From: Nitrososphaerales archaeon
GTDB lineage: Archaea; Thermoproteota; Nitrososphaeria; Nitrososphaerales; JACPRH01
NCBI GenBank assembly: GCA_030745655.1
Contig: JASLOE010000002.1
Coordinates: 1 to 38,760, forward strand
Direction of reading: 5' to 3'
DNA length: 38,760 nt
Notes under the pieces: generated by a model
Told to the model about the DNA's origin: nothing
Database searches by the model: none
Seen by the model: only the letters and a program-made list of their open reading frames with translations
Part shown: in pieces, positions 22,611-34,125 of the stretch
Position numbering within the stretch: position 1 is the first letter of the stretch
Layout of the letters: every line of letters begins with the position of its first letter
Position numbers and translations under genes: made by a program

Positions 22611-23882
22611 TTGTTGAAGGATTATCTTGAGCAAATACCTCTAACACGGATTAATGAAGATGTATCCACAAGACTCGAAATCTCAAAACATCTAAGGGAA
22701 AACGACAGACCAGTATTGTTTAATCATATCAAAGATTATCCAACTTGGAAGATTGTTGGTAATATTTGTACATCAAGAAAAGTTTTCGCAGATGTTCTTG
22801 GTGTTCATACAGACCTCCTGCTAGATACTTTAGCAGAATCTATGAATAAACCGACAAAATACAGTAAGGTTAGTACTGCAGGTTTTCTAAAAAATGAAAT
22901 TGATGCTAGTAATATTATGAGCGATATTCCTTTAGTGATGTTTTATCCAGAGAAGAAAAGATATTACTCTTCGGCAACTATCTTCTTGGTAAAAGACCCA
23001 GATACTGGATTGCAAAATGCTTCCTTTCACAGGATAATGTACATTGATAAAAATCGTTTCTCAGTTCGTATCGTACCACGTGATCTTTCTAACATCTATA
23101 ATAAGAATAAACAAAAAAGAAAACATACCAAAGTAATTGCAATCTGCGGTGTTCATCCAGCTATTTCTTTAGCGGCTGCAACATCATATCAGAATATGAA
23201 CGAAATTGAATTGGCAAATACATTTCTGAAAGGAGGATTGAAATGTCTGGAAATGGATGGAATAGATGTCCCTATAGAAACGGAAGTGGTAATGGTTGGT
23301 AATCTGCTTCACAATGAAGTTGAGGATGAAGGACCGTTTGTGGATATAACCGGTACTTGGGATAAGATTCGGCGCGAACCTGTTTTTGAAGTCGAAAAAG
23401 TGTATTTGCAGAATAATCCTATCTGGCAAATCATCCTTCCAGGATGGACTGAACATCGACTTCTAATGGGTCTCACTCAAGAGCCAAGAATACTGAATAT
23501 TGTTAAAAATACTGTTCCTTCAGTTAAGGATGTTGTGTTAACAAGAGGTGGAGGAGGATGGCTTCATGCAGTTGTTTCAATAAATAAAAGGCATGAAGGT
23601 GAAGGTCAGAATGCTGGGCTCGCTGCTCTTTCTGCTCATCCGAGTCTAAAGAGAGTAATTGTTGTGGATAACGATATTAATGTAAATAATTCGGAAAGTG
23701 TTGAATGGGCTCTAGCAACCCGACTAAAACCTGATGAGGGAATAACGTTTGTAAAAGGTGCCAGGAGTTCTTCTCTTGACCCCTCTTCAGCAGGTACAGG
23801 AGTTTCAGCAAAATGGATTATAGATGCAACTATTCCTCTTAATAGGAATAAACGAGATTTCGAAAAGGTGGAAGGCAATTAG
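22611..23882 (+). CDS. UbiD-family decarboxylase, probable anhydromevalonate phosphate decarboxylase
   Basis: A 423-residue UbiD-family protein, which uses prenylated FMN. Family features include FNHIKDYPTWKIVGNI near the N-terminus, HRIMYIDKNRFSVRIVPRDL (nucleotide/metal site), the IAICGVHPAISLAAA-type segment, and EDEGPFVDITGTWD, where many UbiD proteins have GPFGE-TGYY. It lies 17 bp before the two aconitase-X genes. In archaea with the modified mevalonate pathway these enzymes convert mevalonate 5-phosphate to trans-anhydromevalonate 5-phosphate and then to isopentenyl phosphate. The start is TTG at 22611 or 22614, after gatggag; a TATA-like ttataatt is at about 22581. Confidence 0.85.
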   Translation: MLKDYLEQIPLTRINEDVSTRLEISKHLRENDRPVLFNHIKDYPTWKIVGNICTSRKVFADVLGVHTDLLLDTLAESMNKPTKYSKVSTAGFLKNEIDASNIMSDIPLVMFYPEKKRYYSSATIFLVKDPDTGLQNASFHRIMYIDKNRFSVRIVPRDLSNIYNKNKQKRKHTKVIAICGVHPAISLAAATSYQNMNEIELANTFLKGGLKCLEMDGIDVPIETEVVMVGNLLHNEVEDEGPFVDITGTWDKIRREPVFEVEKVYLQNNPIWQIILPGWTEHRLLMGLTQEPRILNIVKNTVPSVKDVVLTRGGGGWLHAVVSINKRHEGEGQNAGLAALSAHPSLKRVIVVDNDINVNNSESVEWALATRLKPDEGITFVKGARSSSLDPSSAGTGVSAKWIIDATIPLNRNKRDFEKVEGN

Positions 23883-23899
23883 ATCTTAACGATTCAGAA

Positions 23900-25081
23900 A
23901 TGGCAATTATGCAAGGTGGTGATGGACCTGTTAAGCAGAAAGCTATGGAAATTCTCGTTGCTCTTGGAGAAATATTTAATGCTGATAAACTAATAGATAT
24001 CGAATCTACCCAAATTTCAGGAGTAAGTTACAAAACAATAGGTGATGCAGGACTTCATTGGATAGAATCCATGTTGTCTGAGAAAGTTGTGATACCCTCT
24101 ACACTCAATCCAACAGGAATAGACCTTCGTCTTTGGAGACAAATGGGAATAGCTGAAGAATTTGCTAGAAAACAGATGCAGATTATCGATGTGTATTCTA
24201 AACTTGGAGTCAAGACTTTATGTTCTTGTACTCCTTATTTATCCGGACACAGTCCAAAGTTTAAGGACCATATAGCTTGGTCAGAGTCTTCAGCAGTCTG
24301 TTATGCAAATTCCATCTTAGGTGCAAGAACAAATAGGGAAGGTGGACCATCTGCATTAGCATCGGCTCTAATTGGTAAGACTGCAAATTACGGATATCAT
24401 CTTGATGAAAACCGCCAACCAACAATGTGTATCGATTTAGATGTTCATCTTCATGAGGAAAGCGATTTTAGTGCTTTAGGTATTTCAATAGGCAAAAAAG
24501 TGAATAATGGGGTTCCATACTTTACAGGTATTAAAAATCCGAGTGTTGATAGCTTGAAATCTCTTGCAGCTGCATTAGCTGCATCTGGTGGAGTTGCTTT
24601 ATACCATGTTGAGAGTGTTACACCTGAATCAAATTCAATAAAGGTAGGAGGAATTGAAACGATAAGTTTCACTTCTGATGAACTGGTTTCTTCTTATGAT
24701 TCACTTAGTACTATTCAATCTGGGCCTGTAGATTTGGTGACTATAGGTTGTCCTCATGCTTCATTAAGTGAGATGAAGAAAATAGCTACACTTGTTAAAG
24801 GGAAAAAAATTGCTAAAAATACAAAATTTTGGATATTCACATCAGTAGGTGTGAAATTGATGGCTGAAAGATTTGGTTATCTTAGAGATATTGTAAAGGC
24901 TGGAGGTGAAGTTTACACTGATTGTTGTATGGTAGTTGCACCTATTGAACAATTGGACTTCAAAACTATGGCTGTAAATTCAGGAAAAGCCGCAGTATAT
25001 AGCCCTTCAGCTTCTAACGTTGAAGTGGTATTTGGAACTACGGGCCGTTGCGTAGATATTGCTGTGAAAGGATTCGCCTGA
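23900..25081 (+). CDS. Aconitase X large subunit (phosphomevalonate dehydratase)
   Basis: A 393-residue AcnX catalytic subunit. Visible family segments are KAMEILVALGEIFNADKLIDIESTQISG, TLNPTGIDLRLW, the cysteine-containing LCSCTPYLSGHSPKFKDHIAWSESSAVCYANS, the GARTNREGGPSALASAL motif, and DCCMVVAP near the C-terminus. The cysteines should hold an iron-sulfur cluster. With the small subunit it dehydrates mevalonate 5-phosphate. The in-frame codons just upstream (L-D-L-N-D-S-E) look like the family's N-terminus, yet no ATG, GTG or TTG precedes them. The annotated ATG may therefore be slightly internal. Confidence 0.9.
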   Translation: MAIMQGGDGPVKQKAMEILVALGEIFNADKLIDIESTQISGVSYKTIGDAGLHWIESMLSEKVVIPSTLNPTGIDLRLWRQMGIAEEFARKQMQIIDVYSKLGVKTLCSCTPYLSGHSPKFKDHIAWSESSAVCYANSILGARTNREGGPSALASALIGKTANYGYHLDENRQPTMCIDLDVHLHEESDFSALGISIGKKVNNGVPYFTGIKNPSVDSLKSLAAALAASGGVALYHVESVTPESNSIKVGGIETISFTSDELVSSYDSLSTIQSGPVDLVTIGCPHASLSEMKKIATLVKGKKIAKNTKFWIFTSVGVKLMAERFGYLRDIVKAGGEVYTDCCMVVAPIEQLDFKTMAVNSGKAAVYSPSASNVEVVFGTTGRCVDIAVKGFA

Positions 25082-25104
25082 GATTAGTATTTTTAGTGAT
25101 TAAT

Positions 25105-25497
25105 TTGAATATGATAAAATGCCGCACTATTTTTCAAGGTAAAGGAATAGGTAAAGCTTTAGTTTCGCATATCCCAATCAGCTTTTTCGGAGGAGTAGAT
25201 CCTAATACTGGTGTAGTGGTGGAAAGGGGACATCCACTCTTTGGAAAATCTATAAAGGGCAAGGTTCTAATTTTTCCTACAGGTAAAGGTTCAACTGTAG
25301 GGTCCTATATTCTTCTACAATTATCAAAGAATGGGAAAGCCCCAGCTGCGATTGTGTGTAAAGAAGCTGAAGCAATAGTAGCTGTTGGTGCAATAATGGG
25401 TGAAATACCGATGGTGGATAATCCTGATGCTTTCGATTTTACTAGTGGTCAACAAATCATAGTGGATGGATTTAATGATGCAATAATTATTGATTAA
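25105..25497 (+). CDS. Aconitase X small (swivel) subunit (phosphomevalonate dehydratase)
   Basis: About 131 residues from TTG 25105, or 129 from ATG 25111. The frame is open from 25048 inside the large subunit, but conservation begins at IKCRTIFQGKGIGKAL. The swivelling-domain signature is PTGKGSTVGSYILLQL, followed by IVCKEAEAIVAVGAIMGEIPMVD. Fusion of the two subunits occurs in other organisms; here they are separate and adjacent, as in most archaea. Confidence 0.9.
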   Translation: MNMIKCRTIFQGKGIGKALVSHIPISFFGGVDPNTGVVVERGHPLFGKSIKGKVLIFPTGKGSTVGSYILLQLSKNGKAPAAIVCKEAEAIVAVGAIMGEIPMVDNPDAFDFTSGQQIIVDGFNDAIIID

Positions 25498-25584: not shown

Positions 25585-25629
25585 ATGAAAAGGCTTATGA
25601 AATGGGTAATATTTCTAGATAATGTTTGA
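25585..25629 (+). CDS. Possible 14-codon leader ORF coupled to the next gene
   Basis: The frame reads MKRLMKWVIFLDNV and its TGA (25627-25629) overlaps the TTG start of the next gene (25626-25628) as TTGA. The ATG sits about 24 bp after TATAAT, the spacing of a leaderless archaeal transcript. The TTG itself has no good Shine-Dalgarno, so stop-start re-initiation would explain its translation. The same TTGA overlap couples argG and argH in this window. Only position and overlap support it; a chance ORF of this size is possible. Confidence 0.35.
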   Translation: MKRLMKWVIFLDNV

Positions 25630-26867
25630 AATATATTCTCGTTATTGGAGATGGAATGTCTGATGTACCCCTAGAAGAGCTGGGTAATAGAACTCCCTTG
25701 CAGGTAGCTAAGCATCCTAATATGGATTTTATCGCTTCAAGGGGATTAACTGGTCTGGTGAAAACTATTCCAATTGGTAGTGATCCAGGAACTGATTCAG
25801 CCTTTTTATCAATTTTCGGGAATAATCCTTCAAAATTAAATACTGGTAGAGGTCCACTTGAAGCAGCTGGACAAGGTATACATCTGAATAAGAATGACAT
25901 AGCATTACGGTGTAACCTTGTAACGGTAATTGATGGGGTCCTTAAAGATCATTCTGGAGGTCATATCACGACAAATGAGTCAAGGGATTTATTAAAATCA
26001 TTAAAGGATTATTTAGAACAATCAGAGTCTATTGAGTTCTATTTGGGAGTTAGCTACCGCCATCTTCTTGTGCTTCGGGGTACAAAATATTCGGATAAAA
26101 TATTATGCACACCTCCTCACGATGCTATCAATACTGACATAGATTCAATTCTTATTAAAGCAGTTGATGAATCGGGAAAATCAACTGCTGAAATGCTTAA
26201 CAAAATTATTATGGATTCATACAAAATTCTTCAAAACCATATTGTGAACTTGGCAAGAATCAAGTCTGAGAAAAACCCAGCTAATATGATGTGGCCTTGG
26301 GGACAAGGTCGACGACCTAATCTTAGGTCTTTGAAAGAATCATTTGGGGTTAAGGGTGCTGTGATATCTGCAGTAAATATTGTAAATGGTATAGGAAGAT
26401 ACTTGGAGATGGGTGTAATCAAGGTTCCTGGTGCAACCGGTTATTATGATACTAACTATGAAGGAAAAGCAGATTATGCATTGAAGAGTTTAAATGATTA
26501 CGACTTAGTATTGGTTCATGTGGAGGCTCCAGATGAAGCCAGTCATGTAGGTGATATCAATCTAAAGATAAAAACAATAGAAGATCTTGACAATCGGCTT
26601 TTGGGTAGAATATTGGATGGACTAACAGAAGATTACACAATAGCCGTTTTACCTGATCATACAACACGAACTACTGATGGAGCTCATTTACGTAGTCCCG
26701 TACCATTTGCTATTTATTCTAATCAAGTTGATAGAGGTGACAAAGTAGAGCGGTATGACGAAGAGTCTGTAAAAGAAGGGTCACTTGGAATTGTGGATGG
26801 AACTAAATTTCTTAATCTTTTCTTAAATCAGAATGGGTACCTTGATCTCGATAGATTATGGTCTTAG
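25626..26867 (+). CDS. apgM: Phosphoglycerate-mutase-like protein (cofactor-independent, homoserine-kinase-like subfamily)
   Basis: A 413-residue alkaline-phosphatase-superfamily enzyme. The N-terminal motif VIGDGMSDVPLEEL binds metal; GRGPLEAAGQGI and RCNLVTV follow; EAPDEASHVGD and LPDHTTRTTDGAH supply the other metal ligands. In related proteins the nucleophile is Ser in PxSDxA; here the region reads DPGTDSAFLSIFG, with Thr at that place. The subfamily has been annotated both as 2,3-bisphosphoglycerate-independent phosphoglycerate mutase and, from gene context in bacteria, as a proposed homoserine kinase. It sits in the mevalonate block and its stop overlaps that of the HMG-CoA synthase gene by 4 bp. 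Confidence 0.8.
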   Translation: MKYILVIGDGMSDVPLEELGNRTPLQVAKHPNMDFIASRGLTGLVKTIPIGSDPGTDSAFLSIFGNNPSKLNTGRGPLEAAGQGIHLNKNDIALRCNLVTVIDGVLKDHSGGHITTNESRDLLKSLKDYLEQSESIEFYLGVSYRHLLVLRGTKYSDKILCTPPHDAINTDIDSILIKAVDESGKSTAEMLNKIIMDSYKILQNHIVNLARIKSEKNPANMMWPWGQGRRPNLRSLKESFGVKGAVISAVNIVNGIGRYLEMGVIKVPGATGYYDTNYEGKADYALKSLNDYDLVLVHVEAPDEASHVGDINLKIKTIEDLDNRLLGRILDGLTEDYTIAVLPDHTTRTTDGAHLRSPVPFAIYSNQVDRGDKVERYDEESVKEGSLGIVDGTKFLNLFLNQNGYLDLDRLWS

Positions 26868-28363
26868 TGATAAGAAATATCTTTCCATTTTCGGTAGGTA
26901 TGGTAATCAACATATTCTTTTTTCGGATTTTCAACCTGTTCTTTTACTGAAATGGCTTGTTTCCTTTTTTCTTCTATCTGATTAGTTACAGTGAAAATGT
27001 ATGATTCACTTCCTGAACCTGACCCATAACTTGTCATCAAGATTCTTTCTCCTGGTTTTGCAATATCAAGTATAGCACTAAGTGCTGCTAGAGTGGAACC
27101 TGAGTATAGGTTTCCAATTTTCTTAACTACCAAACCTGTCTCAAACTGTTTCTTTTCAAAACCTGCTTCTTGGGCTGCTTGTACTGGGAATTTAGCATTT
27201 GGTGAGTGAATGGCAACATGATTAATGTCATTATTCTTCAAACCAGTATTCTTCATGAGAGTCTTCATAGAAGTTACTACATGTTTAAAATATGCTGGTT
27301 GTCCTGTGAATCTTCCTCCATGACGTGGGTACTTCTCTCCTTCTCTCCTGTAAAAGTCTGGGGTATCTGATGTATAAGGTAAGTAATGATCTAAAGTTGC
27401 AATAACATCATCACGTCCAAATATTAATGCTACTCCCCCTGCACCCACAGTATAGTCCAATCTATCTCCTGGTGATGCTTGAGAATTATCAGCTCCAATA
27501 ACCATTACATATTTACCTTTAAAAACTGGATATGCTACCAATCCAGCTGCATCAATAATTAAATCTGTGGCTGCTTTGCAAGCAAATTGAGAATCTATCC
27601 CTCCTGAAAAGAAACCACCATTCATTTTTTCTCCTAACTCAAGAACTTGAATTACTGTTGCCATTGATGGTTTGACTACGTACGGTGAGGATTCTGAACC
27701 AACAAAACACTTTCTCACTTCATTGTTGTTTATTGCTGAATGAATAATGGCGCGTTTTCCTGACTCTACTGCAAAAGTAGTTGTATCTTCATCAGCAAAT
27801 GGTAAACTTCTTTCAAGAACACCTAGTGCAGGTTCATCATTCTTTATCCTAAACTTTGGTAAATAAACTCCATATCCAACTATCCCTGGTTTTCCATTGA
27901 TGTTTGTTGGTTTTGTTACTTTATATTTTTGATGAGTATAATAATCATCTTCTAAGGAGAAGTTGTGGCTAGAATAGTGTATTAAGCCGTCTCTTCCATC
28001 ACTATAACTTCTCCTAAATCTCGGTATTACCTTTTTTCCAACAAACTCCTCGACTTTAATGGCTTTTGGAGCAATATAATCAGTAATTCTTCCAGGAATA
28101 CTTACCTTACTTTCTCTAAATGATATTATTGCTGATACAAATGTGTCCAGATGATTAAATCGGTTAGTAGGCTCATTTATTACACTGCCGGAATAGAATT
28201 CTCCTTTCTCATAAAAATTGTCAACTTCAAGCATCTTGCTACTGCGACCTTCATTGTTGCAAAAATATTTTGGAGGAAAATATGTGTCACCACAATTCAG
28301 ACATTTGGTAGTCCGCAGTCTGTATTCTACCAGAAGGTTACGCCTTGCAATGGGTTCACTCAT
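26864..28363 (-). CDS. DUF35 (zinc-ribbon/OB-fold)-HMG-CoA synthase fusion
   Basis: 499 residues from the ATG at 28363, which overlaps the thiolase TGA (ATGA); the frame is open 21 codons further upstream inside the thiolase. Residues 1 to about 130 are a DUF35 domain: zinc-ribbon Cys21-x2-Cys24 and Cys35, with Glu38 where the fourth Cys is expected, then an OB-fold. Residues about 158-470 are a thiolase-fold HMG-CoA synthase (GIVGYGVYLP), with Glu200 in AVESGKRA, Cys262 in FACKAAT and His386 in HSPNAKFP as the catalytic triad. It makes HMG-CoA for mevalonate. In other archaea the DUF35 protein is separate and bridges thiolase and synthase. Confidence 0.9.
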   Translation of the reverse strand: MSEPIARRNLLVEYRLRTTKCLNCGDTYFPPKYFCNNEGRSSKMLEVDNFYEKGEFYSGSVINEPTNRFNHLDTFVSAIISFRESKVSIPGRITDYIAPKAIKVEEFVGKKVIPRFRRSYSDGRDGLIHYSSHNFSLEDDYYTHQKYKVTKPTNINGKPGIVGYGVYLPKFRIKNDEPALGVLERSLPFADEDTTTFAVESGKRAIIHSAINNNEVRKCFVGSESSPYVVKPSMATVIQVLELGEKMNGGFFSGGIDSQFACKAATDLIIDAAGLVAYPVFKGKYVMVIGADNSQASPGDRLDYTVGAGGVALIFGRDDVIATLDHYLPYTSDTPDFYRREGEKYPRHGGRFTGQPAYFKHVVTSMKTLMKNTGLKNNDINHVAIHSPNAKFPVQAAQEAGFEKKQFETGLVVKKIGNLYSGSTLAALSAILDIAKPGERILMTSYGSGSGSESYIFTVTNQIEEKRKQAISVKEQVENPKKEYVDYHTYRKWKDISYH

Positions 28364-29586
28364 TGAATATCCCTCGCTAAAATATGAACTGTTGCAATTC
28401 CACCTGTCCCACCTACATTGTGACACATAGCAGTATTAACTTCTCTATCAATTTGATTTTCATTTGCTTCCTTTCGAAGTTGCTTAAAAACCTCGAAAGC
28501 TTGTCTAATTCCCGTGGCACCAACAGGGTGTCCATCTGCTTTCAACCCACCACCGAGGTTAACGGTTAGTTCTTTCCCATTTTTTAAATATGGAATATGG
28601 CCTGACCCTTTAAATGACTCGTAACTTTCATAGATATTTTTCCATGCTTTTCCTTCATCATAAAAACCTGAATCCTCAAGGAAGAAAGCTTCTTCTATAG
28701 AAAAACAATCATGTGCCTCAGCAATATCTATATCATTAATTGTTAATCCTGTTTCTTTCAAAGCTTGATCAACTGCTAAACGAGTAGACATCACGCTTGT
28801 AATCTTATTTCTAGTATAGAGTGAGACGTGGTCAGTGGCCTCTTGGCTACTCATAATATAAATTGGTGTGTCGGTATATTTTTTCGCAATTTCTGGTTTA
28901 GTGATAATAAGTGCAACTGCACCATCTGAAATTGGAGAACTATGAAGAATTCGAATAGGATTAGCTATCATTCTTGAATTCAGAACATCTTCAACTGAGA
29001 TTTCTCCTTTATCCTTAAATTGTGCATATTTGTTCTTGATACAATGATGATGGTTTTTTGCGGATATTTGTGCAAGAGCCTCACTGCATCTTGAATCGTT
29101 ATTACCAAACTCATACATATATCGGGTCATCATTGTTGCGTATAACCCTGGAAAGTTATAGCCGGCCTCAAATTCATAAGGGTCTGCTGCAAACATTAGA
29201 TCATCGATAATCTTATCTTGTCGATCACTCATTTTTTCAAAACCTGCTACTAAAATAGCGTTATATCTGCCTGATTCAATCCCTAGGCAAGCGTTATGTA
29301 ATGCTAGTCCACCTGATGCACAGGCTGCCTCTGTATTAATCATAGGCACATTTAAACCAAGTTCACGGGACATATACCCAGGTACGAGACCTATTTTATT
29401 TGTTACTTGATATAAGAAGCTCCCAAAGAAACCTGCTTCTATTTCGTTTCTTTTGATACCTTTATCAACCGATTCAAATGCTTTCATACCTGCCATTCCT
29501 ATCATGGCCTTAGGATCTTCTTCCCAACGTTCAGTAAACCTAGTTCGGCCTGCACCAATTATTGCTGCACAAGGATTTATCTTCAT
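28360..29586 (-). CDS. Acetyl-CoA acetyltransferase (thiolase, SCP-x-like archaeal type)
   Basis: About 408 residues from the ATG at 29586 (MKINPCAAIIGAGRTRF); an upstream GTG adds three. The nucleophilic Cys lies in INTEAACASGGLALHNA; the catalytic His is in EAHDCFSIEE and the second Cys/His-type motif in MCHNVGGTGG near the C-terminus; ADGHPVGATG is the usual thiolase loop. It condenses two acetyl-CoA to acetoacetyl-CoA, which the HMG-CoA synthase uses at once. The two genes overlap by 4 bp. A TATA-like ttttttatc lies about 30-40 bp upstream on the minus strand. Confidence 0.92.
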   Translation of the reverse strand: MKINPCAAIIGAGRTRFTERWEEDPKAMIGMAGMKAFESVDKGIKRNEIEAGFFGSFLYQVTNKIGLVPGYMSRELGLNVPMINTEAACASGGLALHNACLGIESGRYNAILVAGFEKMSDRQDKIIDDLMFAADPYEFEAGYNFPGLYATMMTRYMYEFGNNDSRCSEALAQISAKNHHHCIKNKYAQFKDKGEISVEDVLNSRMIANPIRILHSSPISDGAVALIITKPEIAKKYTDTPIYIMSSQEATDHVSLYTRNKITSVMSTRLAVDQALKETGLTINDIDIAEAHDCFSIEEAFFLEDSGFYDEGKAWKNIYESYESFKGSGHIPYLKNGKELTVNLGGGLKADGHPVGATGIRQAFEVFKQLRKEANENQIDREVNTAMCHNVGGTGGIATVHILARDIQ

Positions 29587-29721
29587 ATGAAACACTTGTT
29601 GTCACGCCTTTTGAGAAGAGATAAAAAACTTTTCCCAAATATTCTTATGATAGTTGATTGACGAAAAATATTTTCTTATTTCCAGAAACAATTAAAGACT
29701 GGAAATGTTGCGATTAGCCTA

Positions 29722-32654: not shown

Positions 32655-33914
32655 TTATGTCCTTCTCAAAGATAATGCTTTTGACAAAACATCTTTTCCC
32701 ATCATTACCCCTAATCTCCCCTTTGCTGCTTCTTTCTCTGTGAATCTGCAAACATTGTCACGTTCTATATTTTGACCAGAAATAAGTATTGGTACCGGAT
32801 CTGAACTGTGTCCCTTTATGATACATGGGGTAGAGTGATCCGCTGAAACTAGAAATATTGTATTTTTAATATCTACTTTTTGGGTTAATGGGTGGAAGAA
32901 ATCTGAATCAATTGTCTCAACAATTTTTTTCTTGAGTTTCACGTCTCCATCATGTCCTGGCTCATCTGGACCTTTGATGTGAATGTAAACAGCATCGTAT
33001 ATCTGCAAAAGTTCTATGGTTTTTTTTGCTTTGATATGATAATCTGATGTGTTGCCTGCTTTATAATCTCTCATACCGGTTATTTTTGCAACTCCTTTCT
33101 CAACAGGCATATCTAGGATAGATGCAAATTTTGTATTGTGCAGATTCGGTATTTTTTTAATTTTTGGGAGGGTGTTTCCTGCATCTCTAAGTAGCAGAAC
33201 ATTGGCGGGTCTCATTCCGTTTCTTGCTCTTTTGACATTCACTTCATGAGTTTTGAGGACAGATATTGCTTTTTCAGTAAATTCATTTACAAGATATGCT
33301 GCTAACCTTGCTTCTTCATTGTCTTTCAAAGGCTCAGCCTTTTGTAAATATAACCCACCACTTGTTTCTTTGGCAACCCCTATTCCCCCAATTCGGTCAT
33401 AAGCAGGGTCAGTGTTACTTATTTCAGCAGAAAGTTTCTTACCATCTACTTCAATCTTCAATACTGTTCTATGTGCAATCGTTGGTACAAATTCGAAAGT
33501 AGCATTGTGTGAGAGCTTAATTTTCTTGAGTGAATCAGCTAGACCTTTTGCTTCTTTTTGTAAAAGATTACGACCAGCCCGTCTATCAATCACTATACCT
33601 TTATCTCCGAGCGTAGCAAAGTTGCCTCTTAAAGCTAGGTCACCATTCTTAAAATTCATTCCTACGCCTACAGCTTCAACTACTCCTCTACCAAAGTAAT
33701 TTGAAGAAAGATCATATCCGAGCATACAGAAAACTGCAATATCCGATTCAGGAGAGATGCCTTTACCTACCGGATGGACAATTCCTGTTATTCCATCTCT
33801 TGTTAGCTTATCGAGATTTGGGGTATAAGCTGCTTCCAAAGGTGTAAGGTGATTCAGTTTTGGATTTGGTCTATCCCCTACGCCGTCAAGAAGGACATAA
33901 ATCAATTTTCCCAT
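32655..33914 (-). CDS. apgM: 2,3-bisphosphoglycerate-independent phosphoglycerate mutase, archaeal type
   Basis: About 419 residues from the ATG of MGKLIYVLLDGVGDRP; an ATG 60 bp upstream would add an unconserved Ser/Asn/Lys-rich stretch. Motifs: LDGVGD (metal), PESDIAVFCMLGYD with the expected nucleophile Ser, GRGVVEAVGVGM, HIKGPDEPGHDGD and VSADHSTPC. It interconverts 3- and 2-phosphoglycerate in glycolysis/gluconeogenesis. It is the second member of the family in this window and the more canonical one. A TATA-like aaatattc lies at about 33984-33991 on the minus strand. Confidence 0.9.
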   Translation of the reverse strand: MGKLIYVLLDGVGDRPNPKLNHLTPLEAAYTPNLDKLTRDGITGIVHPVGKGISPESDIAVFCMLGYDLSSNYFGRGVVEAVGVGMNFKNGDLALRGNFATLGDKGIVIDRRAGRNLLQKEAKGLADSLKKIKLSHNATFEFVPTIAHRTVLKIEVDGKKLSAEISNTDPAYDRIGGIGVAKETSGGLYLQKAEPLKDNEEARLAAYLVNEFTEKAISVLKTHEVNVKRARNGMRPANVLLLRDAGNTLPKIKKIPNLHNTKFASILDMPVEKGVAKITGMRDYKAGNTSDYHIKAKKTIELLQIYDAVYIHIKGPDEPGHDGDVKLKKKIVETIDSDFFHPLTQKVDIKNTIFLVSADHSTPCIIKGHSSDPVPILISGQNIERDNVCRFTEKEAAKGRLGVMMGKDVLSKALSLRRT

Positions 33915-34125
33915 GGCTGAATTGCTTACAGATGATACTTTATTTTTGTTGCTATGTTTGCAGTATACTACCATACATATAGAGAATATTTATGTTCAAA
34001 TTGTTTTTACATCAATAACGAGTTTTAATATTTTAACGATACTTGACTGATTTGTCCAGCGTTTATATTAAATAATGGATATAGATATGGTTTTTCTGGA
34101 TCGTTAAAGAAATCAAAAAAAGTGT

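Follow-up and report, generated by a model that had tools for sequence, protein, structure and literature searches.

The locus considered here raises the question of whether the protein that joins two early enzymes of isoprenoid synthesis, acetoacetyl-CoA thiolase and HMG-CoA synthase (HMGCS), has become a covalent part of one of them, and of what such a joined chain would mean for the way in which the enzymes cooperate. That DUF35 proteins bridge thiolase and HMGCS, as the initial annotation of this DNA stated, is borne out by PMC6392133 and PMC12329534. The window, i.e., the whole stretch of 38,760 nucleotides that was analysed (contig JASLOE010000002.1 of a Nitrososphaerales archaeon), carries a single open frame of 499 codons that encodes both DUF35 and HMGCS, with domain matches in both halves, so that the single uninterrupted protein and the covalent bridge that had been described for it are both upheld. 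The features on which the argument rests are collected in Table 1.

Table 1. Features of the thiolase/DUF35-HMGCS locus and its surroundings (positions in the window)
Feature	Position	Strand	Extent and basis
DUF35-HMGCS fusion gene	26864..28363	minus	499 aa + stop; ATG 28363-28361, stop 26864-26866; open frame and family matches
Coding part of fusion without stop	26867-28363	minus	
Zinc-ribbon part of DUF35	28214..28336	minus	residues ~10-50; PF12172, 6esq_E alignment, alignment of 28 fused proteins
Cys21, Cys24, Cys35, Glu38	28250-28303	minus	putative zinc site
OB-fold part of DUF35	27953..28213	minus	residues ~51-137; aligned with 6esq_E up to residue 131; strands prevail in the model
Linker	27890..27952	minus	residues 138-158; alignment of 28 proteins, model, start-codon scan
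HMG-CoA synthase domain	26867..27889	minus	residues 159-499; family models, 6esq_I alignment and fold match
Codon of Glu224	27692-27694	minus	
Codon of Cys262	27578-27580	minus	
Codon of His386	27206-27208	minus	
Acetoacetyl-CoA thiolase, SCP2-type	28360..29595	minus	nucleophile Cys92; matches 6esq_A
UbiD-family decarboxylase	22611..23882	plus	family matches
AcnX large subunit	23900-25081	plus	family matches
AcnX small subunit	25048-25497	plus	family matches

The thiolase, HMGCS and DUF35 parts are all homologous to chains of PDB 6ESQ. At the N-terminus of the fusion the zinc ribbon is recognized by PF12172 (27.2 bits versus a cut-off of 23.2), and the DUF35 chain 6esq_E aligns with residues 8-131 (E 2.6e-12). 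The Pfam scan found no match to the OB model PF01796 in the fusion; the OB half has diverged too far for that model and is recognized through 6esq_E together with its predicted strand pattern. The synthase domain scores 382.2 bits against NF003274 (cut-off 244) and 351.9 bits against TIGR00748, 1.4 below the cut-off of 353.35, and 6esq_I matches residues 160-494 with an E of 7.6e-81. The linker between the halves contains Tyr141 and Tyr142, which are invariant in all 28 fused proteins whose loci were read (the window, L030-L037 and L067-L085). Because residues 126-170 of the window's fusion include no ATG, GTG or TTG codon, a free HMGCS start within this stretch is unlikely; 10 of the 28 fused genes are likewise free of start codons there.

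The residues listed in the initial annotation (Cys21, Cys24, Cys35, Glu38, Glu200, Cys262 and His386) lie at the positions given, and the reading of the domain as a complete HMGCS stands for Cys262 and for His386, which we take to be the catalytic histidine. It was Glu200 that had been named as the catalytic glutamate, and here the assignment has to move: in the alignment with 6esq_I, Cys114 corresponds to Cys262 and Glu82 to Glu224, located in the motif GSES, whereas Glu200 aligns with Glu58, and it is Cys114 and Glu82 that PMC6392133 names as key residues of the 6ESQ synthase. All 28 fused proteins share Glu224, Cys262 and His386, and Glu200 is likewise invariant among them.

An AlphaFold2 model of the fusion, built on an alignment of 28 sequences, of which 23 are fused and 5 unfused, with zinc and thiolase absent, has a mean pLDDT of 85.1 and a pTM of 0.90; it is a single-chain model, and the pose of the domains relative to one another is not proven by it. 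The block means around the linker (residues 131-160) are 92-94, and on this model the joint between DUF35 and HMGCS is predicted to be ordered. Confidence is low in residues 1-9 and in loops near 67-72 and 338-354. The HMGCS part superimposes on 6esq_I with a Z of 47.9 and an rmsd of 1.8 over 329 aligned residues.

The partner thiolase matches 6esq_A (E 6.7e-70), with Cys85 of 6ESQ corresponding to its Cys92, and its predicted model has a pLDDT of 89.8 and a pTM of 0.92. The reported ATGA overlap of the thiolase stop with the fusion start can be read directly at 28360-28363. In the source assembly (902,772 bases in 65 contigs, 88.75% complete, so that about one tenth of the genome, where a second copy may lie, is missing) the fused HMGCS is the only one and there is a single thiolase of the partner's kind; HMG-CoA reductase is present on a different contig. 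Within that assembly the expectation that no separate DUF35 gene would be found was confirmed, the sole PF12172 match over the cut-off being the fused one, and no second HMGCS with a free DUF35 came to light. Many other fused genomes do carry free-standing DUF35-like zinc-ribbon genes, so that the lack of a separate DUF35 is no general rule. The UbiD-family decarboxylase and AcnX subunit genes (22611..25497), presumably responsible for reactions further along the archaeal mevalonate route, lie near the thiolase/HMGCS operon, and the same neighbourhood recurs at L030 and L031. The window also holds a pair of related genes, ~6 kb apart, of the cofactor-independent phosphoglycerate mutase type: one at 25626-26867 (+), identified by family scan, and one at 32655-33974 (-), named because it resembles relatives of the former.

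It had been surmised that such fusions exist in other archaea, and they do: three samples, all drawn from the window's own phylum, together give at least 64 genomes in at least 19 family-level groups, among the matches listed. Full-length fusions (66-100% identity) are encoded by 9 of 41 genomes made up of the source genome and 40 relatives, the source genome being one of the nine; in the others HMGCS is free, in an open frame of 345-384 codons (17 genomes), broken (1, G019), represented only by a distant protein of ~470 residues (12), or absent (2, including a 61% complete genome that is the sole further member of the genus). Among 250 genomes of the class the DUF35 part was matched in seven (E <= 1e-15), six of them already counted and one new (G064). 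Of 300 genomes sampled across the phylum, 233 gave a match at E <= 1e-25, and at least 55 full-length fusions (the window and 54 others at 47-64% identity) are found among the matches listed, a count that leaves out G398, whose HMGCS is cut by a contig start. We suspect that a large part of the other fused genomes belong to the Bathyarchaeia.

In all 28 fused loci read, the thiolase lies directly upstream of the fusion and either overlaps it or is separated from it by a short gap, although in three (L036, L037, L072) the thiolase gene itself is cut by a contig end. The fused order, thiolase > DUF35-HMGCS, is rearranged with respect to the usual unfused order, HMGCS > thiolase > DUF35, which is seen in most of the unfused loci read (for instance L038, L040, L047, L048 and L094-L097). 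Rearrangement is possible without fusion, since unfused L086 and L092 have thiolase, DUF35 and HMGCS in that order as separate genes. At L086 (4385-5854, genome G484) the free DUF35 and HMGCS genes lie in one frame with one TGA and a few bases between them; G484 was for this reason rejected as a fusion, and its layout could resemble a step before fusion, though L086 is not within the fused clade.

The HMGCS of ~470 residues (L041 5895-7304, L042 5655-7052, L043 2363-3763, L049 6033-7427) takes the place of the archaeal-type enzyme in some families of the same order, an apparent enzyme replacement; the nearest models of the two that were scanned (L041, L042) are haloarchaeal and bacterial/eukaryotic. 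An HMGCS frame of 838 residues at L098 was rejected as a further fusion, Pfam being empty before residue 493 and the presence of long frames that overlap on the two strands suggesting a spurious extension. At L044 (2538-3986, G019) an N-terminal piece of HMGCS is joined in frame to a thiolase that lacks its own N-terminus, which is either a deletion or a fault of assembly where the two genes adjoin. The genome of L045 (G031:C258) has a second, divergent thiolase-HMGCS-DUF35 set besides an HMGCS of canonical type.

In trees of the three components, whose roots were not inferred, the fused set always lies on one side of a single branch, with support of 98/93 for HMGCS (28 fused, 22 unfused), 100/100 for DUF35 (28 fused, 19 unfused) and 100/100 for thiolase (25 fused, 19 unfused), a result that fits one fusion event. 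L086 and L092 fall within the unfused HMGCS; the unfused thiolase closest to the fused set is that of L045 (89/77); and the longest of the three separating branches (1.54) is that of the DUF35 part. The end branches of U_L045 and F_L067 in the HMGCS tree are long and their placement is unsure. The trees leave out L087 and L090, which duplicate the family and nearly the setting of rows that were kept, L098 with its spurious start, the truncated L102, L044 with its broken HMGCS, L046, which has DUF35 only, and the distant HMGCS of L041, L042, L043 and L049; the thiolase tree also omits the three genes cut by contig ends. Most likely the fusion arose once, after an operon reorder had put DUF35 directly before HMGCS; with roots not inferred, the alternative is that splitting may have occurred in the unfused groups.

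Both parts of the fused gene are constrained, the DUF35 part less than the HMGCS part: in three usable pairs dN/dS was 0.124, 0.102 and 0.068 for DUF35, which is under purifying selection, and 0.021, 0.033 and 0.036 for HMGCS. Two pairs were set aside (L068/L070, out of register, and the window/L032, saturated), and the linker of L035/L036 yielded no ratio. With a full-length protein in 9 of 41 genomes and selection of this kind on its DUF35 part, the fusion is far beyond chance.

The zinc site is where the window's clade stands apart. The canonical DUF35 motif is Cys-x2-Cys-x10-Cys-x2-Cys (PMC12329534), and all eight unfused DUF35 proteins aligned have Cys-x2-Cys as the last two ligands. Cys21, Cys24 and Cys35 are invariant in the 28 fused proteins; the fourth cysteine is kept in 15 (L071-L085) and replaced by glutamate in 13 (the window, L030-L037, L067-L070), always within Cys-Asn/Asp-x-Glu-Gly-Arg. 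The window's DUF35 has three cysteines and Glu38 in place of the four cysteines. The loss of the fourth zinc cysteine noticed at the outset is thus real and shared by 13 of 13 members of the clade, but it is not tied to the fusion, the other 15 fused proteins keeping all four. The alignment indicates a Cys-to-Glu change that arose within the fused lineage and has since been conserved as a clade trait.

It is very likely, in our estimation, that the thiolase and the fused protein work like the methanogen complex, except that one bridge is covalent, and together begin isoprenoid synthesis as its first two steps. From two acetyl-CoA the thiolase would form acetoacetyl-CoA, which the HMGCS domain would convert to HMG-CoA by adding a third acetyl group; the DUF35 domain would dock on both, and a shared CoA site would pass acetoacetyl-CoA across. 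As the contact between DUF35 and HMGCS is here a covalent joint that is predicted to be ordered, only the thiolase side would be left to assemble. Formation of a complex, hand-over of the intermediate and an advantage of the tether are what we infer. The proposal that a fused bridge would fix stoichiometry adds little, because chain numbers in the solved complex are already equal, each of the three proteins being present as 8 chains across PDB 6ESQ and 6ET9. Against this reading, DUF35 is the most diverged component and fails PF01796, and its docking surface may have changed. A rival reading takes the domain for a relic, or for something that does no more than stabilise HMGCS, with thiolase and synthase acting as separate enzymes on free acetoacetyl-CoA. 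Its divergence and the missing zinc ligand in the window's clade would suit a relic, but a dN/dS of 0.07-0.12, three invariant zinc-site cysteines and a thiolase adjoining the fusion in every locus read make this improbable.

That the pair might instead make another acyl-CoA product, isoprenoid HMG-CoA coming from elsewhere, we regard as very improbable. The same three-part assembly does serve other chemistry in PhlABC (PMC6392133), and TIGR00748 was narrowly missed; yet the assembly has no other HMGCS, HMG-CoA reductase is present, Glu224, Cys262 and His386 are invariant and probable mevalonate-route genes adjoin. A false joining of two genes through sequencing or assembly error, which the fragmentation of the source genome and the adjacent but separate DUF35 and HMGCS genes of L086 and L092 might bring to mind, has a negligible chance: a free HMGCS would find no start codon in residues 126-170, and the artefact is for practical purposes ruled out by the same full-length frame in at least 64 genomes among the matches listed. 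There is, lastly, a rather small chance that hand-over itself differs from that of the methanogen complex, DUF35 and the Tyr-Tyr linker forming a fixed part of HMGCS that completes the shared CoA site while the Cys3Glu site of the window's clade reshapes the thiolase face. In Shy, a Cys3His1 finger offers a precedent in which a change of zinc ligands reshapes the thiolase partner (PMC12329534); the window's fusion has at most Cys3Glu1.

Among known systems the archaeal complex of the 6ESQ type is the closest, with the same three components and with catalytic residues that align with those of thiolase and fusion; there, however, DUF35 is a separate chain of 130 residues in a set of three polypeptides and retains the fourth zinc cysteine. 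The Friedel-Crafts acylase PhlABC (PDB 5M3K) is also an assembly of thiolase, HMGCS-like and DUF35 proteins (PMC6392133), but its subunits are separate, it performs another reaction and its PhlA is without the catalytic Cys and Glu, both of which the fusion has. Haloarchaeal and actinobacterial HMGCS-like-DUF35 fusions (WP_012996954.1, WP_227777352.1, WP_058228043.1) combine the same domain families in one chain beside a thiolase gene, but in reverse order, with DUF35 C-terminal and the counterparts of Glu224 and Cys262 replaced in all three. These reverse-order fusions come from plasmid records of Natrialba, Haladaptatus and Rhodococcus; Priestia has a free three-gene set. In the steroid hydratases ChsH2 and Shy, with their Ltp2/Sal aldolases, an enzyme-borne DUF35 likewise docks a thiolase-fold partner (PMC12329534, PMC11321319), but is carried by a MaoC-type hydratase rather than HMGCS, and long flexible linkers are suggested. 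As early as 2010, DUF35 homologues had been described in fusion with thiolase-superfamily members (PMC2954200). The domain pair is thus already in databases; our literature search found no paper on a catalytically complete HMGCS with an N-terminal DUF35 across many families.

The fusion is a real and widespread covalent variant of the known complex, probably of single origin. Its meaning lies in the scaffold of a substrate-channelling complex having been hard-wired into one enzyme across a broad part of an archaeal phylum, apparently once and together with a change in gene order. Isoprenoid synthesis opens with an unfavourable step, the formation of acetoacetyl-CoA, and the fused and unfused relatives that live on in one phylum are natural pairs for testing the effect of covalent bridging on acetoacetyl-CoA hand-over, the fused enzyme being also a two-gene cassette for pathway engineering.
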